A stretch of DNA of 64,000 nucleotides. It comes from Syntrophotalea acetylenivorans. Lineage in GTDB: Bacteria > Desulfobacterota > Desulfuromonadia > Desulfuromonadales > Syntrophotaleaceae. The position numbers were made by a program, and so were the translations under genes. The stretch is from NCBI RefSeq assembly GCF_001887775.1, contig NZ_CP015519.1:1054001-1118000 (forward strand). The letters run 5' to 3'. A model generated the notes under the pieces. That model did not search any database. It was not told the DNA's origin and saw only the letters and a list, made by a program, of their open reading frames with translations. Below, one piece after another: positions 1-58,903 of the stretch; position 1 is the stretch's first letter, and each line of letters opens with the position of its first letter.

Positions 1-551
1 AGAGTTTTACTTTCATTTTTCGACAGATATTTTGCTGGTTTGAGAAATAAAATCCCCTTTTTCTCGAAAGGTTATAGATTTTACCGAGTGAGGAGTTTTG
101 CTTTCCCGAGCACCTAGTCGCTGTTTAAAAAAGTAAAGAGGTAATTCCCTCGCAAAATCAAGAGAACAGTACGTTCGTCTAAAACCGAGCAAGGTCCTTT
201 TACACAGTCGTTGTGAATAAAAGACCTGCGCAAGACCCCTGTATTCTAACGCCCTTAAGGTCCCAATTCCTTAACCGACCTGTAACGAGCACAGGTTGTG
301 ATTGAAGAACAAGAAATCATTTAATTAAGCGCGGAATCCGCTGAAAAGTATTTTCACGAAATCGAGAATTCAGCGCCGCCGAACAATATATTGTTGGCCG
401 CTTTCCGGGGCCACAGGGAACGCCTGTAAAGCTACCATTCATCAAATGTAAGTGACTAAAAAACCCGGTTGTAAGATTCAGTAATTCAGACTTGACTAGG
501 TGTCTAATTTGAAAATCAGAGCTGGGGTGAATAGCTTTCGGCTTTCTATCC
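1..551. other. Hairpin-rich non-coding region, 3' of the element operon
   Basis: No plausible gene was found on either strand. The stretch holds a run of short inverted repeats: 193-226 (bulged stem GGTC/GACC, TTTTA/TAAAA, CACA/TGTG), 276-298 (ACCTGT/ACAGGT), 331-341 (GCGG/CCGC), 339-375 (CGCTGAA/TTCAGCG), 382-395 (a 14-bp palindrome), 396-412 (GGCC/GGCC) and 413-427 (ACAGG/CCTGT). It could be a structured RNA, recombinase-binding DNA near an element end, or simply a spacer with a terminator for the operon. None of these can be settled here. Confidence 0.4.
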
Positions 552-1916
552 CTAACTCGAAGACGGCTTTAACTTATCTAATTCCCTGTGCAGTCGTGCA
601 TTTTCCAACTGCTTCTGCGAAACCTCCGTTTGCAACTCTGCAACTTGCTCGCGCAACCTGCTTTCCTCGGTCCTCTTGTACATATCTTCTTTACCATGCG
701 TATATGACGTGTGACTGGCTGCGGCAGAATGGCCTAGCTTTGGCATCAAATCTAAGACAACTGATTTTGGATCATCAGAAAAGCCCCGTTTTTGCCTGGT
801 CTGGAGAATTTCAGTGGCGGTCTCCTTTCCAAACTTTCTTCTAATACTGTGCCCCCCAGAGCCTTTTCTTAGCCCGATCGCCTTAAATCCGTCTGCAATA
901 ATCCGCGAAATACGTTTATTTCCCAAGGGTTTGCCAGTAGTAAAGCTAATAAAAAGATGTCCTTGCGCTTTTTCCTCTCCGACGCCAAGCCGTTCCAGGA
1001 TTGGTTTGCGAACATCCTTAATAAAGCTTGCGACCCTTATAGCCAACTTAATTTTCACATCATAAGCATTCTGATAGCCAAATTTCTGTTCAGGAGGCGT
1101 AACCTCAATCTCGCGCAAACCTTGTGCTAGCGCCGAGTCAATGACTTCTTTCGAAAAGTGTTCCACCAAGAGGCTACGCACGCTTCCGCCTCGCCAGCCT
1201 ACATGCTCAATAATATCTACAATCAGGATGTTCCTCTCGGCCGACAGCGGGGCACAAAATTCCCTGAAATATCTTCGCAGCCGATTCAACTCATCGTCGG
1301 TTGCAAAATGTTGTCGTTTGTGTATCGACCTCGCTCCGGTTCTTCTAAAACAAAGCGGATAAATCGTCTTCTTAACTTCACCTTTCTTGTTAAATGCCTC
1401 AGGATCTTTCATATAATCAGGCAATTTGCTTCGAATAGGTGCTGTAGGCCACCCTATCCAACCTTCCATCAAGGCTTGGATTTCTTGTGCCCACCAATAA
1501 AATTGATAAATGACCCTTAGTTTTCTGTTAACGGTTTCCTGTGCAGTCTTTTCGGTTCGACTGCTATTTTTAGTCTTTACATTCGCCAGTTCCCAATCTT
1601 TATACTCCTCTAGGTCGCAGTCCTCTATCTCTTTCCAGAACTTCGATTTCACACGCAGGTATTCGCAAAAAGACTTTAGGGAATAAGCCACCATTTGGAT
1701 ATCTGAGAGATATGCCTGTTCGTTATCTTCAGTATTATTATGGCTCGCTAAATGCTGTTTTGCCATATAAAGCGCATACTGCGAGAACTCCTCCATGAGC
1801 TTAATTTTCTCATCGAAAAAAAGTGGCACATCACGATTTGGCACATAAGGCGCCCACACTATTTTGATCGGATATATCCGCCTTAGATCAAGCGCCTTAA
1901 TTCCTTTTTCCCCCAT
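552..1916 (-). CDS. Tyrosine recombinase (site-specific integrase), last gene of the element operon
   Basis: The 454-aa protein carries a complete tyrosine-recombinase catalytic set: Arg in GWRGG (R242), HSIR (356-359), LGH (394-396) and the presumed nucleophile Tyr405 in HTSYTH. The N-terminal 200 residues would form the core-binding part. Residues 413-450 are Glu/Lys/Gln-rich and look like a coiled coil. The start ATG follows GGGGAT and lies 11 bp after the RecJ-like gene, so it is translated from the same mRNA. It is the most canonical recombinase of the element and probably takes part in its integration or excision. Its position at the far end of the operon, away from the two other recombinases, is unusual for three-recombinase modules. 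The family is certain; its target and partners are inferred. Confidence 0.85.
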   Translation of the reverse strand: MGEKGIKALDLRRIYPIKIVWAPYVPNRDVPLFFDEKIKLMEEFSQYALYMAKQHLASHNNTEDNEQAYLSDIQMVAYSLKSFCEYLRVKSKFWKEIEDCDLEEYKDWELANVKTKNSSRTEKTAQETVNRKLRVIYQFYWWAQEIQALMEGWIGWPTAPIRSKLPDYMKDPEAFNKKGEVKKTIYPLCFRRTGARSIHKRQHFATDDELNRLRRYFREFCAPLSAERNILIVDIIEHVGWRGGSVRSLLVEHFSKEVIDSALAQGLREIEVTPPEQKFGYQNAYDVKIKLAIRVASFIKDVRKPILERLGVGEEKAQGHLFISFTTGKPLGNKRISRIIADGFKAIGLRKGSGGHSIRRKFGKETATEILQTRQKRGFSDDPKSVVLDLMPKLGHSAAASHTSYTHGKEDMYKRTEESRLREQVAELQTEVSQKQLENARLHRELDKLKPSSS

Positions 1917-1927
1917 TAAATCATCCC

Positions 1928-3715
1928 CTATTCGGCGATACCAAGAACCTTTAGTTGAAGTGTCCTATTACCCCTAAACACATTTTCAGAAAGCATATAG
2001 ACAAAAGTGTTGTCGTCCCCGACCTTCACGGGCATCTCCATGCTGTCCTCATCTACAGCGAAAAACCAAATGGCCTTATACATTTTGCCATCCATTCTAA
2101 GTTTCAATTGAAGATGGGAACCATCTCCGACCCTCTTCACATCAAGCACCGTAAATTGCCCTCTAAAGGACGGATACGGGAAGTCCTTACCCCAAGGTTC
2201 TAACGTCATTAACTTATCTACTGTTTCCAATATCAGATTACTAGCATCTAGATCACCGTCTACCCACAGGATTGGCCTGAGGAACCTGTCGCCGACCTGA
2301 AGGCTGATCGCTTCCTCATACGCGACGCTAAACTGCTCAATATCGTCTATTGAAAGAGTAGCACCTGCCGCACCCGCGTGTCCTCCAAACCCTACCAACA
2401 ACCCTTTATGATTATCTGCCACATGCTGCAATGCTTCTCTGACATGGATTCCGTCAATGCCCCTAAATGATCCACTGGCCAGGGCGCGACCATCTTTTCC
2501 AGTTACTCCATTTTGGTCTCCGTTACGTGCCCCTGCCCCTTTTGGCGAAAAGATAGCTGCAGGTTTTCCATAAGCTTCAACGACCTTGCTCGCAGTAATC
2601 CCATGAACTCCGCTGTGTCCATCGTCAACGTACACAACGATTGAATTACCTTCAATCTCTCTTGCCGCTGCAAATGCTTTTCGCCGAACTCCCCTTTCTA
2701 TATCTTTCCTTAAAGAATTTTCTTCCTTAAGAAGGTTCCACTGTTTACGCGCTGACTTGATATCCTTTGCAACTAAAAAATGAAAGCCAGCATCTGCCCA
2801 ATCAAGTCTTCCCGCTGCAGCAACCGTTGGAGCCAAGTTGAATGCAATATGTTCTGAGCACACGTCGGTCCCGATTTCTTGCCGAAACACCTTCCAACAC
2901 GCTCTCTTTTCACTGTTGATCAGTGCAAGCCCACGCTTTACCATTGCACGATTGATGTAACTCTTGTCTGGTCTCAATGCGACACAATCCGATATCGTCG
3001 CCACGGCTACGTAATCGATAATATCCACCAGGCTTGGAATCGTAGGTCGATAATTTTTCTCAAGAAGCCTCGTTCGAACTTTAGCCATTGTAAGAAAGGC
3101 CACTCCCGCCCCACAAACAAAAGGGTCATACTTTGAGTCGAATCTTGCGGGATTAACTACCGCGAAAGCAGAGGCTGGCGGCCCTTCTACCGGAACCGCA
3201 TGATGGTCTGTAACGACAACATCTTTCCCCGCTTCTGCTATCTTTTTAATCCTCTCCTGGTCACTACTTCCCTTATCTGCCGAAATAACTAACGTGGCAT
3301 CGGTTTCCAATATCCGTTCAACCACAGGCTCCGTAATTCCATATCCCTCAGTGAGCCGATGGCTAGTGACTACAGAGAGATTATTAGGATCTACTCCGAA
3401 GTGATCTACAAGCGCCGACCACAAAACAGATGCCGCTGAGATACCATCGAGGTCGTGGTCAACCGCAAGAATGCAACGCTCTCCCTCTTCGATTGCTTCG
3501 ACAATTCGATCAACGGCTTTATCCATGTCTGGGATACAGATTGGGTCATCGATATTCGCAACAGATGGCTGGAACAAGGCTTCTACACTAACGCTCTTTT
3601 CAACTCGTTTTGCAACCAGGTCCGCCAGCCAAGGCTCGACTCCTTCTCTAACCAAATCCTCAAAAACATGATCTAACCGCTGACGCTCACGCACCTCTGG
3701 AACTGGTCGTACCAC
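1928..3715 (-). CDS. RecJ-like single-strand DNA exonuclease (DHH/DHHA1/OB), element-borne
   Basis: The 595-aa protein has the RecJ motif series: DHDLDG (86-91), DKG (147-149), TDHH (169-172), ISDC with Asp243, and the DHHA1 motif GGHAGAAG (444-451). A C-terminal part from about 505 resembles the RecJ OB-fold region (motif around SHLQLKLR). RecJ enzymes degrade single-stranded DNA 5' to 3' from 5'-phosphorylated ends in mismatch repair, base-excision repair and RecF-type recombination. Length matches bacterial RecJ (about 570-600 aa), and all metal-binding positions I can place are present, so it is probably active. It diverges clearly from the host recJ stub (DHDLDG against GDYDVDG). Start GTG follows GGGAGG. 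It sits between the RecD-like fusion gene and an integrase. Because the element destroys host recJ, this gene may replace the lost function (inference). Confidence 0.85.
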   Translation of the reverse strand: MVRPVPEVRERQRLDHVFEDLVREGVEPWLADLVAKRVEKSVSVEALFQPSVANIDDPICIPDMDKAVDRIVEAIEEGERCILAVDHDLDGISAASVLWSALVDHFGVDPNNLSVVTSHRLTEGYGITEPVVERILETDATLVISADKGSSDQERIKKIAEAGKDVVVTDHHAVPVEGPPASAFAVVNPARFDSKYDPFVCGAGVAFLTMAKVRTRLLEKNYRPTIPSLVDIIDYVAVATISDCVALRPDKSYINRAMVKRGLALINSEKRACWKVFRQEIGTDVCSEHIAFNLAPTVAAAGRLDWADAGFHFLVAKDIKSARKQWNLLKEENSLRKDIERGVRRKAFAAAREIEGNSIVVYVDDGHSGVHGITASKVVEAYGKPAAIFSPKGAGARNGDQNGVTGKDGRALASGSFRGIDGIHVREALQHVADNHKGLLVGFGGHAGAAGATLSIDDIEQFSVAYEEAISLQVGDRFLRPILWVDGDLDASNLILETVDKLMTLEPWGKDFPYPSFRGQFTVLDVKRVGDGSHLQLKLRMDGKMYKAIWFFAVDEDSMEMPVKVGDDNTFVYMLSENVFRGNRTLQLKVLGIAE

Positions 3716-3745
3716 TTTGCCTCCCGTTCTTTATTAAATTAGTCT

Positions 3746-6313
3746 TTAGTTAAATTTCAAACCAACAATGCGATCAAAAGCACGGGGTGGGGTTGTCACT
3801 TCCCTTGCAAATACTCCCTTGTCTCCAACCAGTACTACTTGTTTTTGCGCACTGGTAACCGCTGTATACAACCAAGAATTATCAATGACTCTGTTGTCAC
3901 CCGTTTCTGCTACAGCTACTATTACACGTTCAAATTGTGAGTCCTGTATCTCATTACAGGTAATCGCATAGCCAAGGGAAATATTAGCGAGGTCGCTTTC
4001 GTGCACATTAACTAGCCTCCCTTCAAAATCAATCTTGGCAACGTACCGAACCTCAAGTCCGTCGTCTGTTATATCCCAAATATGACGTTCAAATATTTCT
4101 GTCACGATCCCGAGCATTCCGTCGAAGAGATCACGAGAATGATCACTCATCGAATGCCATAAAACTGGATCACCAACTGTGACCTCTTCACTACCGGTCA
4201 AGGCATTACAATTTTGCAAATTTAAAACTGGCGTTTCAAGACTTTGATATTCCCGTAATTCACGATGCTCCTTATGGAGTGCCTGGTTGAGGTGTTCACA
4301 AATACCGTTCGTCGCAGCTACAATTTGTACATCACCGTACTCTTTGCTCTCCCGGTAGACCCTCAAGATATTTTGAACGGTCGTTTCAACGCATGTACTT
4401 TCAAGAAAGCTGACCCCCACCTTCCGTTTTCTAAGCCCAACAAAGTTTTCGATTTCAGGAAATGTCAGAGATCGAATTGCATTGGCTACTTGGGGAATGC
4501 CTGTTTCTAACTCTGGTGGATGCATCGTTACTAATTCCACCTGAGGAATATGCATTACGCCTTCCATGGCATGAAATACTAGGCCAGGCCCCTTTGGAAA
4601 AAACCGATAACTATCTCCGATGAAGCATATGCGGACAGTTCTTGGAAGCTTTTTCAGAACTCGATAGGCAACTGCCACATCCAACGCGTTCGCTTCGTCA
4701 ATAAACAACCACGCGTTTTGTGCAATTCCACCTTCATCAAGTTTTTTTAGAAACTTGCCAATACTGATTGGTTCAATTCCTGTAAGTTCTTGCCTTCTTT
4801 TCGTTGCGAGCCCAGTCAAAGCTAGAAAATAAATAGTTGCTCTATCCCCAATTTGGTCAAAGATCGCTTTTAAGATATGGGATTTGCAAACACCGAGCCC
4901 ACCGAAAATACAACTTACGGGATTTTCAAGTACTGTCCGTACTGCCTTAAGTTGCTCGGAGTTTAACGGATAGCCAACGGTCTCTACAAATTTATTAAGA
5001 CGATTTTCATCGAACTCTACTGTTAGGAGAGCCTGCCCCTTCTCTAACATTTTTGCTCGCTCAAGAATTTCTTTTTGGACGTGCTGTTCGACTACAAACG
5101 CCCACTCTAGTTGCACTAAGTCACGATCCTTCCATTCAACAATCCGATCCTGACAAGTCGTTAGTGCATCCTCAATCTGAACTGGCACTCCCAGAAGTTG
5201 TTCAATATCATTTTCTAGTGCATCCAACTGTACTGCTGTATGCCCATTGTCGTAATAGAAATAGCAAACCGTTTCCACCGCAGCAGCAATTCTACGCTTG
5301 TCATTTCCTAGTATCCCAATGGCATTGGCTAGCTGATCGACCTCTTTCCAGCTTTTAAAAGCAAGCAAACGGTATGGATCATCGGAAATTTTTTCAATAG
5401 CTTTCTTGCCCCAAAATCCAACAATCTTTTTTGCTAGTATTGGATTCGCATTGCAGCTTCTTAGCCATTCCATCACCCGAAACTCAAAGCAATATTCCTG
5501 CCACCCTTCAACCAACATCTCTACTATTGGGGCAGAAAGTAACCTGCCACCTTTGTAACTAATTGCTTCAACATTTCCCTGTTCAAGCACCTCTCCAAGC
5601 TGGTCTCCAAAAGCAAAATAAAGACTATCTGCGATTCTCGAGTTAATCCCTGGAAAGCGGTTATTAAGCGCGAGGAATAAAATGAGATTTCGCCCCATAG
5701 GCATTAGTCGATCACAATCATCAGCGACAAAAACTTCGTCAAAATAAGGATCTGGTATCAAACATCCCTTAATATCCCATACTTCACCAACTGCGGGCAG
5801 CACCGGCACCAGGTCACGTGTTGCTTTCACATAATATTTCAGGGCATCACTACCCGTGGATTTAACGCAAAAAACAACTTCTGATGGATTGTAACGTGGG
5901 ATACTAACCACATACCCTTCTATATCATTTTGTTCTGAATACCCTTGTTCAAAACGTGCGTCGTACTCATCCGCCTTCTTTTTGGAAACTCCGTGTATGC
6001 TGCCATAGTCCCCCTTGGCACGTACCACATTGATATGGGCACCATACTTTGTCGCCAACTGATGATACGGGCGCAGCTCCCTTCGTATCACAAATGTATT
6101 GGCAACAACGACATCTTCTCCCTTAGCAAGCAACCGTTCGGTTTCCTGATGGCACCAGCGATGGGCTTCCCCTAGTTTAGATCCATCAAAGCGATATTCT
6201 CCATCCGGGCCGACGAAGTACTGGTCAGCTTCAACCAGTGTCCCCGGATACATTTTCGCCAAGGTGGTTTTCCCACTCCCAGGCTTCCCTCGTATCAAAG
6301 TCAGAGTTGCCAT
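3746..6313 (-). CDS. Polynucleotide-kinase-like domain fused to a degenerate RecD2-like helicase
   Basis: 855 aa. Residues 1-125 form a P-loop kinase of the AAA_33/N4BP2 type: an intact Walker A GKPGSGKTT (9-17), EADQYF, an AH.WC motif and a SIHGV motif, typical of 5'-OH polynucleotide kinase-like folds. From about 290 it follows RecD2: a helix-hairpin-helix region (DDPYRLLAF, GHTA near 357), then SF1 helicase motifs. These motifs are altered: Walker A reads GGLGVCKS (471-478, Cys476 for the usual Gly), the usual KSQG is EIQD near 788-791, and YTAxTRA reads YTAVTSA (836-842, Ser841 for the Arg). Walker B FIDEA (537-541) is kept. The helicase half may be weak or a structural pseudo-helicase, while the kinase half looks intact. 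It lies 4 bp after the 133-aa gene. A DNA-end-processing role with the RecJ-like protein is inferred from context. Confidence 0.75.
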   Translation of the reverse strand: MATLTLIRGKPGSGKTTLAKMYPGTLVEADQYFVGPDGEYRFDGSKLGEAHRWCHQETERLLAKGEDVVVANTFVIRRELRPYHQLATKYGAHINVVRAKGDYGSIHGVSKKKADEYDARFEQGYSEQNDIEGYVVSIPRYNPSEVVFCVKSTGSDALKYYVKATRDLVPVLPAVGEVWDIKGCLIPDPYFDEVFVADDCDRLMPMGRNLILFLALNNRFPGINSRIADSLYFAFGDQLGEVLEQGNVEAISYKGGRLLSAPIVEMLVEGWQEYCFEFRVMEWLRSCNANPILAKKIVGFWGKKAIEKISDDPYRLLAFKSWKEVDQLANAIGILGNDKRRIAAAVETVCYFYYDNGHTAVQLDALENDIEQLLGVPVQIEDALTTCQDRIVEWKDRDLVQLEWAFVVEQHVQKEILERAKMLEKGQALLTVEFDENRLNKFVETVGYPLNSEQLKAVRTVLENPVSCIFGGLGVCKSHILKAIFDQIGDRATIYFLALTGLATKRRQELTGIEPISIGKFLKKLDEGGIAQNAWLFIDEANALDVAVAYRVLKKLPRTVRICFIGDSYRFFPKGPGLVFHAMEGVMHIPQVELVTMHPPELETGIPQVANAIRSLTFPEIENFVGLRKRKVGVSFLESTCVETTVQNILRVYRESKEYGDVQIVAATNGICEHLNQALHKEHRELREYQSLETPVLNLQNCNALTGSEEVTVGDPVLWHSMSDHSRDLFDGMLGIVTEIFERHIWDITDDGLEVRYVAKIDFEGRLVNVHESDLANISLGYAITCNEIQDSQFERVIVAVAETGDNRVIDNSWLYTAVTSAQKQVVLVGDKGVFAREVTTPPRAFDRIVGLKFN

Positions 6314-6317
6314 TGTT

Positions 6318-6719
6318 CTACGGCCTCAAAATTCGCCCAGCCCCAAGGAACCATTCTTCGATTTGGTATTGTTGTCTCGTTGCATTAACCTCAACTTTTA
6401 GAGCGTCAGCCTGGTTTGCGAGTTCTTGTATTTCTGGCATTAACGCCTTAGCGCCCTCCGTTTTATGATCAACACCCCTTTTTGTCCGAGAAACTTTTTC
6501 CAACCTATCATCCAGATAAGCTAGAGCCGCTTTTACTCCTTCATGATATTTTGCGTTCTTCCCAACGTTAAGAACATGGACCAGCGTTTGGTCCCGGTTT
6601 ACTTTTCCGCGATTATTGAGTTTCACTTTCTTCAAAGGTACAGTTTTGGCGTACTCCCACACTAACTGCGCTCTCAACTTACCCCACTCTTTATCGGTTA
6701 CCCCCCCTGGCCTTATCAT
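6318..6719 (-). CDS. Small element protein, function unknown (133 aa)
   Basis: I do not recognise a family. The protein is basic in its first half (KKVKLNNRGKVNRDQT) and helical in its second, with an Ala/Glu/Leu-rich stretch around 90-118. Its ATG overlaps the stop of the preceding gene (ATGA), and a GAGGGG ribosome-binding site lies just upstream, so translation is probably coupled. Small proteins of this size accompany the recombinases of Tn554-like and GInt-like elements, but assignment to such a partner is only positional. Confidence 0.6.
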   Translation of the reverse strand: MIRPGGVTDKEWGKLRAQLVWEYAKTVPLKKVKLNNRGKVNRDQTLVHVLNVGKNAKYHEGVKAALAYLDDRLEKVSRTKRGVDHKTEGAKALMPEIQELANQADALKVEVNATRQQYQIEEWFLGAGRILRP

Positions 6720-7387
6720 CCCCCCTCCTCTACAGGACGCAACCCAAATTTTTCTGCAAATTGCTTTCGTAAACTTGATATTTCCACGTCTTTAGACGCA
6801 ATTACAACAGTCATTCTCTTTACAGTCTCTTCATGTGCGGCCTTCGCCTCAGACAGCGCTCTTTCGAGATCCTTGACCTGTTTTTCCATTTTGGCCATTT
6901 TGTCCAGTGCTTCCACCACATAAGCACCCTCTTCTTGTGCAACTGCTTCCAAGTGACTTACTTCCGCCTTCAATTGCTTCAGCAAATCCTTTTGGTTTTC
7001 CTTCGCTAACTGGTCTGCCTCGGTCTTTTTGATCGCCTTAAACAGGGCTTTCGCTTTTGCATGTTCCGTCGGGCGACTCTTTAAGGAATCAGGCCCATGC
7101 GACGAAAACGCTCCGTGACGACTAATTATCTCGGATATATTGTGATCGCAGTTGCAATAGCGTTTTTCCTTGGAAGTATCAGTCGTCCACTTAGCGAACG
7201 CCAGCTCATTTTTTGGAACAAAATCGAGCTGTCGTGCTCCCGTTTCAGAGTCTCGAATCACTTCGCCATCCCGGTTACATTTCCACGGCAGGCCGTGTGC
7301 TACATACTCACGTAGCACTCGGAGTTTAAGATTAATATTTTCCGTAGCCTTAGCCTTAGATACCTCGAAAATTTTTAGCGCCGCCAT
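6716..7387 (-). CDS. Coiled-coil accessory protein of the recombinase module (TnpC-like?)
   Basis: 223 aa. The first 110 residues are basic and mixed, with a small Cys cluster (YCNCDHN) and an R-rich segment that could bind DNA. Residues 110-215 are a long charged coiled coil (KAIKKTEADQL through SSLRKQF). It starts 3 bp after the large recombinase stop, with AAGGAG as ribosome-binding site. Its position directly behind two recombinase genes and its helical make-up are like the small TnpC-type proteins of Tn554-family transposons. That resemblance is positional and compositional, not a sequence match I can demonstrate. Confidence 0.6.
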   Translation of the reverse strand: MAALKIFEVSKAKATENINLKLRVLREYVAHGLPWKCNRDGEVIRDSETGARQLDFVPKNELAFAKWTTDTSKEKRYCNCDHNISEIISRHGAFSSHGPDSLKSRPTEHAKAKALFKAIKKTEADQLAKENQKDLLKQLKAEVSHLEAVAQEEGAYVVEALDKMAKMEKQVKDLERALSEAKAAHEETVKRMTVVIASKDVEISSLRKQFAEKFGLRPVEEGG

Positions 7388-7390
7388 GAC

Positions 7391-9835
7391 TTACTCCTTA
7401 TCCAATGCAGAGGCTAACTGCGCAAAGTTGCTAGCCAATAAACGCAAAAACTCCCGATTTTGATCCGCCAACTTCTTCTCCGCTTCAATCACTCTCTCAA
7501 GTAGTTGAAGTTCGGCCTTAGCGGCATGGCGCACTACCAAAGGCGTTCCATAATCTTCGATCTGCTCTCTCAACTCCTCCACTTGCTCTTTCAGTAAGCA
7601 AATGTTTGTCTCACCACTGTCATGGTGAATACAGCTTTGGCATTGGCTCGGTGATGCATCTTCAGTATGTCGAAAACCATCTTCTTCTCGATAACATTTA
7701 GACATCCGACGCGTTCTATCGTTATCGCCGTTATTACACCCGCCATGCTCATAAGCTGTTCGTTGATAACCCCGTCTTAGTAGGCTATCCCCAACAATCT
7801 CTGCTAGTTCAGTTAGGTCCTTTTCGTTGAAGTTCACTTTTTGAGAAAGCACTCTGTAGAGACGCAGAACGATTCTGGGCCAATGACCTCCGAGCCTTTC
7901 ACCCTTAAGTATTTGAAGCACGTTTTCAAGAAAGGCTTCTCCTCGGACGTCCTCCAATTCCTCCATTTCGTTTATTGTATGTTCCTCCATTCGACTGCGA
8001 TAAATTTTTTCGATTTTATCGGCATCTTCTCGCAATACTGGATCAGTGACATAAACCACCGTCATTCCAGGATCGAATTGCCGCAATTGGTGTTGAAGCG
8101 CCAAAAGTTTCGGATTGTCATACCGGTAAAAATATAGTAGTGCAAAAAATCTACGAAACGGGTGGGATCGATGGTCGAAGCGTAAATCCTTTACGCCAGC
8201 TCGCCGCAGGAAACCTTCTGAATTTGCATTATAACTATAACTTACCGGGTCTTTAGTAAAGGATGCTGGAGTAAGGACCCTGAACACAAACAGCTTGTCC
8301 TTTCTTGCTGTTTTAATATCAGATTCATAAGTCTTTTTATTTGCATACAGAGGCCTAAATATTTGGCTCAATTCTTCCATGACGCATACTGAATCTTTAA
8401 CAAGATTATTAATATAGAAGATGCACCAATCTTTAACCGTTTTTTCGACGTAAATATCGCACAATCTTAGCTCAGGGTTTTCTTCATCATTCTTTATACA
8501 ACCAAAATAAAAACCATACGGCAAAGTCCCTTGACCTATAACCTCATTGAGACGGCGTCCATGATTGGTCGCTATCATAATGAAACACGCGGTCATTGTA
8601 TGGCGTATGAGTTCATCCACACATGGCGTGTCTTTTTCATTGTAAGCCTGAGACCTACGATCTAAAACTACCCCTTTAAATGGCAACCCATATTGTAAGC
8701 ACAGTTCGCTAACACGCTCCTTCAGTGTTAGATCATTCGATAATTTTTCCCTTAACCATTTATCGCTGCATTCTTCGAGTTCACAAGTCAACTCCTCCAA
8801 TCGTTGACGGTAAGCCTGAAGTATTGCCTGCACTCCCGGCCAATAATCGTAAATCCAAGCAAGCGACTCCTTAAAAAGTTTTATCGCATCATCCAACGTC
8901 AGATTCAGAGTTCTGCCAGAGTCAACTGTATTGCCTGCCACTTTTTTGGCAAGCTTATGAGCATTCGGGAAAGGCTTCACAACAGCTTGGTCAATCTCAG
9001 ACGGAAGTTTGTACAATCTGTTTAACGCTTTGATGACAGAATAGGCCTCCATGTAACTAAGGGAATCTTTGGCCTTACCATCCGATTGCCGATGATTATT
9101 ACTAAACTCACTACCATGAAACCTTAATAGTTCGGCACAAAACCATTCAGGGGCCTGGTTTCGATTTAGAGGAATCCCTAAAGTTTCTTCAAAAAACTTA
9201 TCTCTTATTTTTACATATTTGTTACCACTTTCCTCCCATGAAGAACATACATCTTTTATATTAATATCACCTCGGTCTAGACTTTTGATAACCACACGCA
9301 ATTCGGGTTCAATGTCAAACAATCCAGTCCAACCTTTGAAATTTTCAAAGTCAGTTAAAAAATCATCAAAATCAGAACGAGTCAAACTACTAACCCTGTA
9401 AACGCCCTTTTTCTGAAACATCCAAGAAAGAAAGCGCATCAGATGATTAAAGTTTTGCGTCATTTCAGAAGCTTTTTTGGTACTACTTCTAAAGGTATTA
9501 TCTATGTCATTGAGATAAACCTTTGCCAATAGCGTTAAATGAGGAAAATGCGTAATCGGCAACAAGCCTTCGAATATGGAAAGAGGCCCACCGCACCTCA
9601 ACATAATTTGGTCAAGATCCCAAATCTTAGTGTCTTCTTTTCGACGGTCTACTTTAACATCGATTACTACTTGATTCTCCGACCAATCACTGAGGTATCC
9701 CCTACTTTTTATACTTTCCAATAACTCCCGCTCGTCCTTTAATCCTGTTGCACATTCTACCAAGACCTCCTCTCTATATTTATCTTTCTGACTTTTATTT
9801 AAATTCCGAAAAATCTCTATATCTGGCACAGGCAT
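7391..9835 (-). CDS. Large tyrosine recombinase with Cys-rich C-terminal segment
   Basis: 814 aa. The catalytic signature is complete: Arg in NHGRRLNE (427/428), HPFR (558-561), His582 in LQHQL and the presumed nucleophile Tyr595 in VVYVTD. This places it with the large TnpB-like recombinases of multi-integrase elements. After the catalytic domain there is a candidate zinc-binding segment with Cys700, Cys714, Cys732, Cys735 and Cys746, then a coiled coil from about 748 to 810. The first 300 residues are an N-terminal arm and core-binding region. Start ATG follows AAAAAGGAG and lies 13 bp after the 615-aa gene. It is the better candidate for strand cleavage of the two recombinases adjacent to the recJ junction. 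Confidence 0.85.
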   Translation of the reverse strand: MPVPDIEIFRNLNKSQKDKYREEVLVECATGLKDERELLESIKSRGYLSDWSENQVVIDVKVDRRKEDTKIWDLDQIMLRCGGPLSIFEGLLPITHFPHLTLLAKVYLNDIDNTFRSSTKKASEMTQNFNHLMRFLSWMFQKKGVYRVSSLTRSDFDDFLTDFENFKGWTGLFDIEPELRVVIKSLDRGDINIKDVCSSWEESGNKYVKIRDKFFEETLGIPLNRNQAPEWFCAELLRFHGSEFSNNHRQSDGKAKDSLSYMEAYSVIKALNRLYKLPSEIDQAVVKPFPNAHKLAKKVAGNTVDSGRTLNLTLDDAIKLFKESLAWIYDYWPGVQAILQAYRQRLEELTCELEECSDKWLREKLSNDLTLKERVSELCLQYGLPFKGVVLDRRSQAYNEKDTPCVDELIRHTMTACFIMIATNHGRRLNEVIGQGTLPYGFYFGCIKNDEENPELRLCDIYVEKTVKDWCIFYINNLVKDSVCVMEELSQIFRPLYANKKTYESDIKTARKDKLFVFRVLTPASFTKDPVSYSYNANSEGFLRRAGVKDLRFDHRSHPFRRFFALLYFYRYDNPKLLALQHQLRQFDPGMTVVYVTDPVLREDADKIEKIYRSRMEEHTINEMEELEDVRGEAFLENVLQILKGERLGGHWPRIVLRLYRVLSQKVNFNEKDLTELAEIVGDSLLRRGYQRTAYEHGGCNNGDNDRTRRMSKCYREEDGFRHTEDASPSQCQSCIHHDSGETNICLLKEQVEELREQIEDYGTPLVVRHAAKAELQLLERVIEAEKKLADQNREFLRLLASNFAQLASALDKE

Positions 9836-9848
9836 AACAGGCTCCTTT

Positions 9849-11696
9849 TTATTGGTCCAACAGGAGGGAGTGCTTTGAGTTTTTTACACACTCTTGCATT
9901 GCGGCGCAAAAAAGCATTCGAGGCACATGATATAAAAGAAATCGCCTAGGATTGCTTGATTTCAATCTTGCCGCATGAGTTGCGTAGTATTTGGTCTGCC
10001 ACTTTAGATGTTCGATTTCAGCCTTTCCCACCTCAAAGGTATGGGTACCTGCAGAAGCAATCCAATCATCGCAGATTGAATGCTTTTGTGCTTCGTTCTC
10101 ACCTACTGGAAAAAGTAACCGGTCATCAATATCGGTAACGGTCATTCCACGACTCTCGACAGTCTCGACACCGTTTACTGCCCAGGTAATGGTGGCAGCA
10201 AGTTTATCTACGAACCGACGGATATTAGCCTCATTAATAATCCTAATAATATGTTGGTTGAGGTATCCTTTTGTCATGTCAATATCTCCATGACCCAGAG
10301 TCTCTTGAACGAGAAATGGATCATGTGTTTCTAAATATTGAATATTAGCTACCTGATCCCGCAATTGCTTTTTGCTAAAACCCTGCAAGCCATAAGATTG
10401 AATCAGATATCTTTTGTGTTGGCTATCTCCTCCTGTACTGAAAAGGTGTTTCTTTTTCCGTTTGATGCGGTGAACAAAAAGTGAAGGGTTATCTCTTTTC
10501 CACCACCGTTCGACATTTTTGTTATGATCAAGGAGGAGACTTATTACTTCGTGAAATCGGGGACTTTCCCTTTCAAACACTCGTTTAAAAAATACCTGGT
10601 TGTTTTTAGATTTAACGCTCTGAATCTCGAAACAGGCCCGGATTTCTGTAACATTTTCAGCAGTAATGGAAATAACAACATCAGGGTTCCAACCTGTATA
10701 AATCAAAAACAAAACTTCTGCTGCCTCTACTACAGGTGGGGGCATATAGTAGCTGACTAAAAACTGGTCTATAAGATCTACACCAAGCTTACTTAATTCA
10801 GGAGCAGGCGCCCGGTCAGTCTTTCCGCCCCGTCGTCCAGAGGAGAAAAGTCCATCATTATCCAACTCCCAAGCATTGAAGGCAATTGTGCTACCTTTTG
10901 AAAAAATTCGCTCATCGAAAGCTTTATATATATAAAAACCTTGTAAATGCAAAGTCGCCAATTTGTAGGTCAGCTTTTTTTCGAATGATGCACTCTCACC
11001 TGACCTACGAGCGATCTTATAATATTCATGTTTCCACAAATCCCAATCTTCTAAAGCTTCATTCCTTAACTTTTTATGCCTGCAAGCTGCTTCTTTGTAT
11101 GCCTCAATACTCTCCCAACAGGCTTCTTCAATTAGGTTTAAATCACCTTTCATCGCCCCTAACACGTTGTCATGTAAAGTTTCTTCGTCCTCGTGTTGAG
11201 TCATGACTAAGCGTTGACTATTGAGAACTCCTTGTTTTTTGCACTCGGAATTGTTGCGCGATGGAAAACGAGTTTGAAAAAAAACATCGCAAACAACTTC
11301 GCCACTACCCAGGAAAATACCGGAACGGGAAATAAGCGTTCTCCAGTGTATAGACGCAGTGCTTTTATCTTTAATCGTGTCGACAGTTTCAATATGGTCC
11401 TCAATAAGATTGTATAAACGGCGAATGTCTTTTCCGCTAAGGTCCTCTATAGGAGCTCCAAGGATCTCCCTTCCCTCAGTGTGGTTACTGAGTGAAACCA
11501 ACATCAAGCGAGTTTGATTGCTAATCGTTATGTCTAAGGGAAAAGAAGCGTCTATCAAAATTGCCTCAAAAAATCCCCCTCTCGCGATCCCCAGTTCGTC
11601 AAAGTCATATTGATGGGTATCGATTTTTTCATTACCTCTTCTTCGTTTTGTGGTCGGGACATTTGCAATATTTTTTCGCCAAGTGAGATTAGTCAT
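9849..11696 (-). CDS. Degenerate tyrosine-recombinase-like protein, first gene of element operon
   Basis: 615 aa. The fold signature of tyrosine recombinases is visible at 330-480, but two catalytic positions are changed: the first Arg is Asn (TGWNPDVV, N337) and the His of HxxR is Lys (KQLR, 443-446). LGH (467-469) and the Tyr (GYL, Y478) remain. It may be a DNA-binding partner rather than an independent cutter, or a family with altered chemistry. Its start codon is only about 80 bp from the recJ junction, behind a ribosome-binding site AGGGTG. With so little upstream room, transcription may come partly from the host sec/recJ side (inference). Confidence 0.75.
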   Translation of the reverse strand: MTNLTWRKNIANVPTTKRRRGNEKIDTHQYDFDELGIARGGFFEAILIDASFPLDITISNQTRLMLVSLSNHTEGREILGAPIEDLSGKDIRRLYNLIEDHIETVDTIKDKSTASIHWRTLISRSGIFLGSGEVVCDVFFQTRFPSRNNSECKKQGVLNSQRLVMTQHEDEETLHDNVLGAMKGDLNLIEEACWESIEAYKEAACRHKKLRNEALEDWDLWKHEYYKIARRSGESASFEKKLTYKLATLHLQGFYIYKAFDERIFSKGSTIAFNAWELDNDGLFSSGRRGGKTDRAPAPELSKLGVDLIDQFLVSYYMPPPVVEAAEVLFLIYTGWNPDVVISITAENVTEIRACFEIQSVKSKNNQVFFKRVFERESPRFHEVISLLLDHNKNVERWWKRDNPSLFVHRIKRKKKHLFSTGGDSQHKRYLIQSYGLQGFSKKQLRDQVANIQYLETHDPFLVQETLGHGDIDMTKGYLNQHIIRIINEANIRRFVDKLAATITWAVNGVETVESRGMTVTDIDDRLLFPVGENEAQKHSICDDWIASAGTHTFEVGKAEIEHLKWQTKYYATHAARLKSSNPRRFLLYHVPRMLFCAAMQECVKNSKHSLLLDQ

Positions 11697-11752
11697 TTTT
11701 TCACCCTATAAAATATTGGAAATTTTGGAGTTTTTTTGCTTATGTCAGTAAG

Positions 11753-11780
11753 TTGTTTTAGGGATTGTAGCATAAAACAT
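11753..11780. other. Probable attachment-site core at the element/recJ junction
   Basis: A perfect inverted repeat TGTTTTA (11754-11760) and TAAAACA (11773-11779) with a 12-bp spacer straddles the point where the recJ reading frame is lost. Paired 7-bp arms around a short spacer are the usual core architecture for tyrosine recombinases. The right arm overlaps the GAT GTT codons of the conserved recJ motif, so part of the site is supplied by recJ itself. The matching site at the left end is outside the window. Confidence 0.5.
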
Positions 11781-12054
11781 CGTAATCACCATGCACAGCA
11801 ATACGTTCTCCAGCCTGTACCGCTTGACTAAGGCGTGTAACCGCTACTTCCATGCCCGCCAGCAGCAAGGGGTCGGGCATGGCGGCCAAACGACAGGCCA
11901 GGTACTGACGTCCCTGATCAACATCCTCAACACCCCTCTGCTGCAGCAATGCTGCGACCAGGGGGCTGATCTGAAGTTTATCGGACAAGGTTTTGGTCAA
12001 AGAGACGTCGGCTTCACCGCGACTTTCCCAGAGATAGCGTAATATCGGAATCAT
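11758..12054 (-). pseudogene. recJ: 5' fragment of host recJ, interrupted at the catalytic motif
   Basis: The first 93 codons match the N-terminal part of RecJ (helical N-terminus, then AVHGDYDV at 86-93). Intact RecJ continues with DG and about 480 more residues; here the frame runs into element DNA, adds LCYNP and stops. Genuine recJ sequence is therefore about 11776-12054. The stub lacks almost every metal ligand and cannot be active. Start ATG has AGGATC just upstream and lies about 95 bp after secF. The rest of the gene presumably lies beyond the far end of the element. Confidence 0.9.
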
Positions 12055-29191: not shown

Positions 29192-29450
29192 CAAAAAAAA
29201 GCGCCCGCCCAAAAACAGGGGCGAGAGCTTCAGCTTCGCGGTACCACCCTGATTCAGCCGCCGTAGCGACTCTTCGTTGGCCCTTTACGCGGGCTGACGG
29301 CACTGGCTAACGGCATATGGTAAATATCCGCTTCACCAGCGCAGCTCCGAGGCGAGTTCAACCATCCCTGTACCGGCTTGCAGCAACCGCCGGCTCTCTT
29401 TAACAGGGGATAAGCCTACTACTCCTCATCAACGCCTTTCCAATGATCTG
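29192..29450 (-). ncRNA. Leucine T-box riboswitch in the leuA leader
   Basis: The universal T-box AGGGTGGTACCGCG is at 29237-29250, followed by a GC-rich terminator stem and a run of eight T (29193-29229). Upstream, Stem I features are visible (GATGAGGAGTAGTAG and the distal loop region), and the specifier loop reads GAACTC with CTC, a leucine codon, at 29354-29356. Uncharged tRNA-Leu binding would favour the antiterminator and switch on leuA-leuC-leuD-leuB. T-boxes in Gram-negatives are rare but known for leuA in delta-proteobacteria. Confidence 0.92.
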
Positions 29451-57373: not shown

Positions 57374-58903
57374 CTACTTGGGACCTCGGGCGCGCCAAAG
57401 CCACCAACCAGATAAAACCAGCAGCACAGCGGGGAGCAAATCACCGTAGCGGGTATAAAAACTCGGGCGGGCGCCGAGACCGACCTCTCCTCTGAGAGCC
57501 AATCGCTCAAAGAGTGGTGACTGGGTAGTGATACGCCCAGAGGGGGAGATCAATGCAGAGATACCGGTATTCGCGGCCCGTGCCAGCCATACGCGGTTTT
57601 CCACGGCGCGAAAGCGGCACATGGCCAAGTGCTGATAGGGGGCCGAGGAACGGCCGAACCAGGCATCGTTAGTGATATTAACCAACAAGTCGCTACCCCG
57701 GCGCACGTATTCGCGAGCCAGCTCGGGAAAGATCCCTTCAAAACAGACCAATACGCCAAGATGGTGACCGTTCATGGGCAGAGGGCTGATGGTGCCAGGG
57801 GCGAAATCGCCGATCCCCACCACCAGCTTATCAATAAAGGGCAAAAAGCGGCCTAGTGGCACATACTCGCCAAAGGGCACAAGATGAACTTTGTCGCTGC
57901 GGCCAAGCACCCCGCCGTCAGGACCCAGGAGAAACGCACTGTTCAGGTTTCGGGGTCGGCGGTTAATCACTTCGAAGGCCGGGCTGCCGAACAACAGATA
58001 AGCGCTGCTGGCGCGAGGTACATCGGTCACCGCCGCCGACAAGGGGCCGCCCTGCTGAAAGTAGAAGGGCATGGCGCTTTCCGGCCAGATAATCAGCTCA
58101 GAATCATCGCCATCCTCTGCAGGCAAGGACAATTGGCGATAGATATCGACGGTGCGTTGCTGATAGGCCGGGTTCCATTTCACCGACTGATCGATGCAGC
58201 CCTGAGCCAGCACCGTGGTCAGGGTGTGCTCCCGCTCGTCGGGCTGGCTGGCCAGCCGGAGAGTGCCGTAGCCAAGGTTTGCCAAAAACAGCAGCGCCGT
58301 CGCTGTCACTGCAATGCGGGGAAAGTCCCTCCGAACCCCCTGGCCCCGTGCCTGCCAGAGAGCCGCGAGAGTGGCATTGCTCAAGATCAGCAAAAAACTC
58401 AAGCCATAGGGGCCGCATAAATCAGCGGATTGAATCAACAGTAAATGGGATTGCTGGGAATATCCGAGGGTCGCCCAGGGAAAACCACTGAGCAGAAACG
58501 AACGCAGAAACTCAAGGGCAACCCAGAATACAGGCAGTGTCAGGGTTGGTGCCAGACCGAGCCGTTGCCGAAAACGGCTGGCAGCCCAGGTTGCACCACC
58601 AAAAAAGAGTGCCAGATAGGCAACGAGCAGCAGATAGGCCACCACCGACAACACCGGATGCAGGCGGCCGTAGGTGGTCATGACGATATTGAGCCAATAG
58701 AGTACGAGACCGAAAAAACCAATCCCGGCCAAAAATCCGCTGCGAAAGGGACGCCGCTCCATGACCACAAACAGTGGAACCAAACCGAACCAGGCGACGC
58801 TGGCCAGGTCGGGGCGGGGGAAAGAGAAGGCCAGCAACAAGCCGGCAAACAGTGACCAACAATCGGTCTTATCGATCGGCAGGCGCCTCAAGACCCTCAA
58901 CAT
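57374..58903 (-). CDS. lnt: Apolipoprotein N-acyltransferase
   Basis: 509 aa. Six or more membrane helices in the first 220 residues, then a nitrilase-like periplasmic domain with the triad Glu in IWPESAMPF, Lys in RSDKVHLVPFGEYVP, and Cys in GVLVCFEGIFPE. It N-acylates lipoproteins in the inner membrane. Its start overlaps the corC-like stop by one base. Confidence 0.95.
   Translation of the reverse strand: MLRVLRRLPIDKTDCWSLFAGLLLAFSFPRPDLASVAWFGLVPLFVVMERRPFRSGFLAGIGFFGLVLYWLNIVMTTYGRLHPVLSVVAYLLLVAYLALFFGGATWAASRFRQRLGLAPTLTLPVFWVALEFLRSFLLSGFPWATLGYSQQSHLLLIQSADLCGPYGLSFLLILSNATLAALWQARGQGVRRDFPRIAVTATALLFLANLGYGTLRLASQPDEREHTLTTVLAQGCIDQSVKWNPAYQQRTVDIYRQLSLPAEDGDDSELIIWPESAMPFYFQQGGPLSAAVTDVPRASSAYLLFGSPAFEVINRRPRNLNSAFLLGPDGGVLGRSDKVHLVPFGEYVPLGRFLPFIDKLVVGIGDFAPGTISPLPMNGHHLGVLVCFEGIFPELAREYVRRGSDLLVNITNDAWFGRSSAPYQHLAMCRFRAVENRVWLARAANTGISALISPSGRITTQSPLFERLALRGEVGLGARPSFYTRYGDLLPAVLLVLSGWWLWRARGPK

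Follow-up and report, generated by a model that had tools for sequence, protein, structure and literature searches.

Genomic islands of the GInt type carry, at one end, an operon (ginABCD) that encodes three tyrosine recombinases and the small protein GinD (Bardaji et al. 2017, PMC5385486). These islands have a variable cargo and insert site-specifically, with short imperfect direct repeats, into a protein gene, and a term search of the available text of that paper returns no mention of helicase, recD or recJ (PMC5385486). In the elements known as SE, several proteins with a recombinase fold act together with an auxiliary coiled-coil protein. As far as the accessible part of their description goes, SE have the gene order intA-tfp-intB plus srap, are reported from Gammaproteobacteria only and, by term search, are not said to include a helicase. 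Finally, in some known islands, sequence of the island itself rebuilds one end of the gene or tRNA that was entered and so makes good the damage caused by insertion.

The locus described here lies in the window, that is, the whole 64,000-nucleotide stretch of DNA that was analysed, in genome G000. At the right end of an island, seven genes of the same orientation, spaced by -4 to 30 bp, form one operon. The features are given below with their coordinates in the window.

9849..11696, minus strand: IntA-like gene, first of the operon, 615 aa; Phage_integrase at E 0.0018 and 18.5 bits, under the cut-off of 27.1
7391..9835, minus strand: IntB-like gene, 814 aa, tyrosine-recombinase-like; sequence reading shows R, HxxR and Y motifs
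6716..7387, minus strand: small gene, 223 aa, coiled-coil-like; no significant family match in Pfam or PHROGs
6318..6719, minus strand: small gene, 133 aa; no significant family match in Pfam or PHROGs
3746..6313, minus strand: kinase-RecD fusion gene; ATG start, a single uninterrupted reading frame of 855 aa
5939..6313, minus strand: polynucleotide-kinase-like domain of the fusion, residues about 1-125; matches to AAA_33, phrog_2071 and phrog_505, phage likeness and matches to PDB PNK by profile
4880..4903, minus strand: altered Walker A, GGLGVCKS, residues 471-478, from the alignment
3941..3952, minus strand: EIQD replacing KxQG (motif V), residues 788-791, from the alignment
3848..3856, minus strand: TSA replacing TRA/TRG (motif VI), residues 820-822, from the alignment
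1928..3715, minus strand: RecJ2, 595 aa, complete, of a divergent subfamily; DHH, DHHA1 and RecJ_OB above cut-off
552..1916, minus strand: IntC-like gene, last of the operon, 454 aa, tyrosine-recombinase-like
11756..11776, no strand: right end of the island, matching the left end as an inverted repeat at 12 of 15 bases
11777..11781, no strand: right copy of the flanking 5-bp repeat GATGT (ACATC on the plus strand); left copy at G000:C1:957476-957480
11758..12054, minus strand: 5' part of the split host recJ, a 98-aa reading frame whose last residues are island-derived; beside secF/secD, as in relatives

Compared by description with the available text on GInt, the operon resembles ginABCD in its three recombinase-like genes, small protein, position at an island end, short repeats and protein-gene target. 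It differs in that a second small gene and a RecD-like gene, accompanied in G000 by RecJ2, precede the third recombinase-like gene, and in that the island carries a copy of the split gene; profile support for the recombinases is weak. Several recombinase-fold proteins and a coiled-coil protein also recall SE; nevertheless, the gene order differs from that given in the accessible SE description, and the congener G003, which has a related island, is recorded as Desulfuromonadaceae, which places this group outside SE as reported there. Unlike the islands that restore a gene end, this one leaves the host gene interrupted in a conserved motif and carries a complete, divergent copy at another place. 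The fusion protein has the HHH, AAA_19/30 and UvrD_C_2 layout of the RecD2 helicases (TIGR01448) but has lost their motor motifs and gained a kinase domain; the latter shares its P-loop and other conserved residues with T4-type, PNKP-type and small phage kinases and is here joined to a RecD2-like protein.

The explanation that best covers these observations, and that we regard as probable, is that a RecD2-like gene belonging to a recombination operon sits in an island that split recJ and brought RecJ2 as a replacement, and that its product has become a motor-dead, kinase-fused subunit. The kinase-RecD gene would thus be this lineage's version of a RecD2-like helicase gene in the operon of a family of multi-recombinase islands, with the presumed family order IntA, IntB, two small genes, RecD-like gene, IntC.

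The operon and its relatives

By profile, the recombinase identity of the window genes appears weak. The IntA match to Pfam is below cut-off, and its first Arg and HxxR motif appear degenerate. IntC reaches a PHROG integrase family (E 7e-7) and falls under the cut-off of the NCBIfam XerA model, with R, HxxR, H and Y motifs that can be read in its sequence. For IntB there is no such family match, and neither IntB nor IntC matches a Pfam integrase family. IntB does, however, resemble its positional counterparts in G108 (E 2e-10) and G022 (E 6e-9), and the 133-aa gene corresponds to the second of two small genes at the equivalent place in related operons.

The operons of G022 and G108 begin with two long genes and two small ones, followed by a RecD-like gene and then a recombinase. 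An Alteromonas plasmid has the same layout, its first and last genes being annotated as recombinases. Phage_integrase is above cut-off for the last gene of G108 and the first gene of the plasmid operon, and below it for the last gene of the latter, while the first genes of G108 and G022 and the IntB genes of G108 and Alteromonas do not match it. In G185, G187, G014 and Bradyrhizobium, the recombinase-like genes are instead grouped before the RecD gene. Related RecD-like genes with intact motifs thus recur beside recombinase-like genes and, from this recurring place in the operon, we infer that the RecD-like protein is a recombination subunit.

The kinase part is far more restricted. In a search of 195 genomes with the fusion gene, 51 had a match, and among the matches listed all those outside G000 start at residue 144 or later, behind the kinase part. 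Among 398 matches in plasmid records, none of the 15 listed starts before residue 96 of the fusion. Protein scans of genome and viral contigs with the fusion, from which near-identical records may have been omitted, returned no relative, and a scan of viral contigs with a RecD alignment kept 80 relatives with an identity of at most 36%. In a profile search of 395 genomes of the phylum, G000 scored 1003 bits and all others 373 or less, with 121 genomes past E 1e-90; by their scores and lengths, we take these other matches to be mostly chromosomal RecD2, and no further island was gained from them. The kinase fusion is known from one genome only, G000.

The fusion protein

The first-pass annotation of this DNA had described an intact P-loop kinase fused to a RecD-like part with three changed motifs (GGLGVCKS, EIQD and TSA), encoded in one operon with a RecJ-like gene within an island. 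These elements are borne out: the operon holds both genes among its seven, all on the same strand, the island can be delimited to 108,296 bp, the neighbour is a genuine RecJ-like protein with three RecJ domains above cut-off, the three motif changes stand in the alignment, and the kinase is of the polynucleotide-kinase type. Pfam domains of the fusion are AAA_33 at residues 4-100 (36.8 bits, cut-off 27), HHH_RecD2 at 279-359, AAA_19/AAA_30 at 450-598 and UvrD_C_2 at 781-829. A PHROGs search linked the N-terminus to phrog_2071 (an ATPase family, over residues 1-170) and to the polynucleotide kinase family phrog_505, and the C-terminus to an exonuclease V family.

Other comparisons also point to a kinase fold family with PNK relatives. 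When a profile of the kinase alignment was compared with the PDB, the 36 distinct P-loop sequences matched included PNK chains, at E 5e-6 to 3e-4. The 123-aa kinase segment has matches in 605 of 50,697 phage records and in 3 of 72,556 plasmid records, and the domain is 39-42% identical to four phage proteins; in an alignment of the fusion with four phage and two plasmid proteins, the P-loop and other conserved kinase residues are retained. An RNA ligase gene adjoins the phage relative of the kinase, or lies one gene off, in three of the four phages inspected. Judged by its sequence, the kinase is intact, and a 5'-end kinase activity may be assigned to it putatively. An AlphaFold single-sequence model of the domain had a mean pLDDT of 43.3 and was too poor for use.

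The helicase part has fared differently. It scores 242.1 bits over residues 173-840 against the RecD2 equivalog TIGR01448, below the cut-off of 500. Thirteen relatives were aligned with it, namely seven genome loci beside recombinase-like genes, three plasmid loci and three RecD2 judged by their neighbours to be of the chromosomal type; all 13 are canonical, with GK(T/S) in Walker A, HKxQG in motif V, TR in motif VI, and the Gln and Arg of motifs III and IV, respectively. The G000 protein is altered at each of these SF1B motor motifs, since two more losses, in motif III (GDSYRFFP, with R for Q) and motif IV (HPPE, with RQ lost), add to the three in the list above. The Walker A Lys and the DE of motif II are retained.

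The homologue in G003, of which residues 370-855 are present before the contig ends, is about 82.6% identical over that part. It has the motif III change, NEIQ and TSA in common with G000, and differs from it in a GVGKF Walker A, a motif IV Arg that is kept, and QGS. Canonical residues in close homologues had been named in advance as evidence against a meaningful alteration; on this point G003 cuts both ways, as it keeps some canonical residues and shares other changes. Because the changes are partly common to G003, they are not sequencing errors and were built up stepwise, some motor losses predating the divergence of the G000 and G003 islands and others following it.

Over the 483 codons shared by G000 and G003, omega is 0.224 for the RecD part (bootstrap 0.163-0.302), compared with 0.099 for RecJ2 and 0.160 for IntC. 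The RecD-like gene is under weaker but clear purifying selection. Stepwise and partly separate losses of motor residues in the two genomes, together with an omega higher than that of RecJ2, would also fit a RecD-like part that is decaying to a pseudogene and was joined to the kinase by chance. This is unlikely: the 855-aa frame is intact, omega is far under 1 after the shared losses, the P-loop and further conserved residues of the kinase are retained, and purifying selection disfavours plain decay.

The reading of a motor-dead subunit accounts for the same data as follows. Motor activity of the helicase part has very probably been lost in the G000 lineage, and selection would have kept the part, most likely because it binds DNA or acts as a scaffold within a recombination complex that now includes a 5'-end kinase. 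Tyrosine recombinases leave 5'-OH ends, on which a kinase of this type naturally acts; for this reason, the kinase could mend or block stalled recombination intermediates.

The island, the split recJ and RecJ2

The island measures 108,296 bp between its repeats (G000:C1:957481-1065776) and includes positions 1-11776 of the window. The two ends are imperfect inverted repeats of each other, TTATTATACAACCCC / TTATGCTACAATCCC, in which 12 of 15 bases agree when read by eye. The remainder of host recJ lies beyond the left end, at G000:C1:956026-957477, as 483 codons starting with VDGITAS, so that the break falls inside catalytic motif I, between HGDYDV and DG. By contrast, recJ is uninterrupted at this site in G001, G002, G004 and G005, that is, in all four other relatives checked, with frames of 585-601 aa.

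In the congener G003, whose genome is 67% complete, recJ is split at the same codon next to a similar island end, as seen at one junction on a separate contig. RecJ2 (92.6% identical), IntC (83.9%) and the RecD part are all on one contig there. Between G000 and G003, dS is 1.21 for host recJ and 0.38-0.53 for three island genes, whereas dS between the recJ of G003 and the whole recJ of G002 is 0.12. The difference in dS between host recJ and the island genes points to two independent insertions of related islands at one recJ site. The flanking repeats, the uninterrupted sites and the repeated use of one site strongly suggest that insertion is site-specific; the island would have entered motif I of the host gene in this way.

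RecJ2, encoded in the operon, has the DHH, DHHA1 and RecJ OB domains with the catalytic Asp/His residues of RecJ. Its catalytic residues are preserved in motifs I-IV (DHDLDG, ADKG, TDHH and the Asp of motif IV), as is GGH, whereas the Arg/Asn of motif V are missing both here and in the relatives of family f6. Against the RecJ equivalog TIGR00644 it scores 355.5 bits, below the cut-off of 396.9. It is nevertheless the only protein in G000 that is a complete RecJ and exceeds the RecJ_OB cut-off; besides it, the search matched the split host gene and one protein under that cut-off.

RecJ2 is only 30-33% identical to host RecJ, compared with 52-56% to the sole RecJ match at E 1e-40 in each of four f6 genomes; among 277 genomes of the class, E 1e-75 is reached only by these four, G000 and G003. 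A RecJ tree groups RecJ2 with f6 (100/100), far from host RecJ, in a set of 18 rows in which 6 of 15 inner forks are open and the two RecJ2 rows have an unusual composition. Several Gammaproteobacteria have more distant members of the subfamily (36-39%) in neighbourhoods that look chromosomal, and such members are also present on plasmids. In G018, of family f6, a RecJ of this subfamily (L057 9270-11138) directly follows secD-secF and, since it occupies that locus, the usual RecJ seems to have been replaced in f6. In G000, RecJ2 most likely substitutes for the recJ that the island broke.

Split genes and carried copies in other islands

Two related islands show a comparable arrangement with other genes. 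In G108, the operon begins after MSKTIAILTGGGDCP, the start of a phosphofructokinase (PFK) gene, the remainder of which resumes at PGLNA about 35 kb away, with GTCCAG at both junctions. An intact 364-aa PFK, 49% identical to the split one, lies just within the island, near the ends of which there is a 66-bp inverted repeat (91%). A 16-kb island in G022 interrupts a paralogue of EF-P after VFM and has, directly behind the recombinase operon, an intact EF-P-like gene of 186 aa with about 80% and 77% identity to the split halves. The ends of this island share inverted repeats, with no recognisable flanking direct repeat. Pfam confirms both the PFK and the EF-P assignments. The G022 and G108 hosts may not have needed the island copy, as G022 keeps a canonical EF-P besides the split and island copies and G108 holds another PFK elsewhere. 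The IntC gene of G022 (L037 7511-8920) is in two frames (286 and 161 aa), and the EF-P island may thus be immobile.

All three delimited chromosomal islands with the order IntA, IntB, two small genes, RecD-like gene and IntC (G000, G108 and G022) split a gene and carry a copy of it, and G003 does likewise as far as it can be seen. In addition, on a contig of Methylophilaceae UBA6140 (L085 8892-11764), the last 280 aa of a RecJ, from motif V onward, abut DNA with a RecJ2-type gene that is 53% identical to RecJ2 of the window, and the end sequence is somewhat like that of the G000 island. This case is only suggestive, because no operon protein has a match on the contig.

In islands with other gene orders and on plasmids, no split gene with a copy was found in the stretches examined, most of whose far ends are unlocated. 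Self-comparison gave no similar pairs of reading frames in L041, L064, L066 and L067, and short or neighbouring pairs in L039, L040 with L186 and L187, L042 and L065. In G185 (80 kb), G187 (80 kb) and G014 (57 kb), it gave only weakly similar pairs of long proteins (22-35%), which were not taken as split targets. A rule that the carried copy always lacks the target sequence was considered and dropped: going by the bases that the copy shares with the insertion site, it fits recJ (18 of 33) and pfkA (20 of 30), and efp poorly (26 of 33). A literature search covering titles and the starts of abstracts, with few subscription journals, found no recJ, pfkA or efp island with a recognised replacement.

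These islands bear on why a RecJ gene neighbours the fusion. According to the first-pass annotation, kinase, RecD-like protein and RecJ would form an end-processing pathway: the kinase would supply RecJ with 5'-phosphorylated ends, and the pathway would serve element transfer, repair after excision or defence against phage DNA. For the most part this finds no support and is quite improbable, even though G000 encodes the three activities next to one another, the kinase domain is of PNK type and 5'-OH ends would come from tyrosine recombinases. Kinase and RecJ are absent from the related operons of G022, G108 and the Alteromonas plasmid; the helicase motifs are lost; and the RNA ligase genes near the phage relatives of the kinase point to RNA at least as much as to DNA. 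Nor is there a conserved neighbourhood, as a RecJ gene was found beside a RecD-like gene only in G003 besides G000, and the search for the fusion in other islands, which had also been proposed, yielded recurring RecD-like genes and the kinase fusion in G000 alone. Since the islands of G108 and G022 carry instead a PFK or EF-P-like copy of their own split gene, the RecJ neighbour is better explained by the split recJ than by end processing.

That RecJ2 is ordinary cargo whose co-occurrence with a split recJ is coincidental is about as improbable: RecJ-like genes of the wider subfamily do occur on plasmids without such operons nearby, and at least one other homologue of a host gene, the Lnt-like gene, is in the island, showing that housekeeping-type cargo is not unique to the target, but target and copy agree in the recJ, pfkA and efp islands, for which three random matches would have a chance of roughly 1 in 10^5 to 10^6 (a rough estimate from gene frequencies), and a RecJ2-type gene also abuts a broken recJ in UBA6140. 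The Lnt-like gene (G000:C1:976511-978064) is 63% identical to the intact host Lnt-like gene at 57374-58903 of the window, and it is the only one of 94 listed reading frames of the island stretch that matches host frames of window positions 12100-64000.

Replacement of the split gene by the carried copy, as preferred here for recJ, may extend to a whole family of islands, a generalization that we hold to be about evenly balanced between right and wrong. Its recombinases would target a conserved motif of a conserved gene (recJ, pfkA or an EF-P paralogue), the island would carry a divergent, complete copy so that the host tolerates the insertion, and the recJ islands would add a motor-dead helicase scaffold with a kinase that acts on the 5'-OH ends of the recombinases. 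The sample consists of three delimited islands, and G003 in part. This pattern of splitting a gene and carrying a substitute is the more surprising outcome of the analysis. If true, even highly conserved protein genes would be open to such islands, as each brings a complete substitute with it; insertion would thereby be permitted and the host bound to the island. There would also be a route by which housekeeping genes such as recJ are swapped for distant versions. The RecD-like gene is, moreover, a candidate helicase component for multi-recombinase islands, which are poorly understood, and its presumed motor-dead form, fused to a kinase, opens the role of such a component to testing.

Other contents of the island read as genes for heavy-metal efflux and handling and a CBASS-like set, the latter from PADLOC and the remainder by reading. 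In the CBASS-like set, PADLOC places the oligonucleotide cyclase at one location, and the E1-E2 and JAB proteins near the left end of the island. By reading, CBASS-like genes seem to be present in the islands of G003 and G108 as well (L060 3250-4329 and L038 12890-17458). In the host part of the window, a T-box leader (29214-29441; Rfam RF00230, 116.9 bits) lies upstream of an apparent leuA-type gene and looks ordinary.
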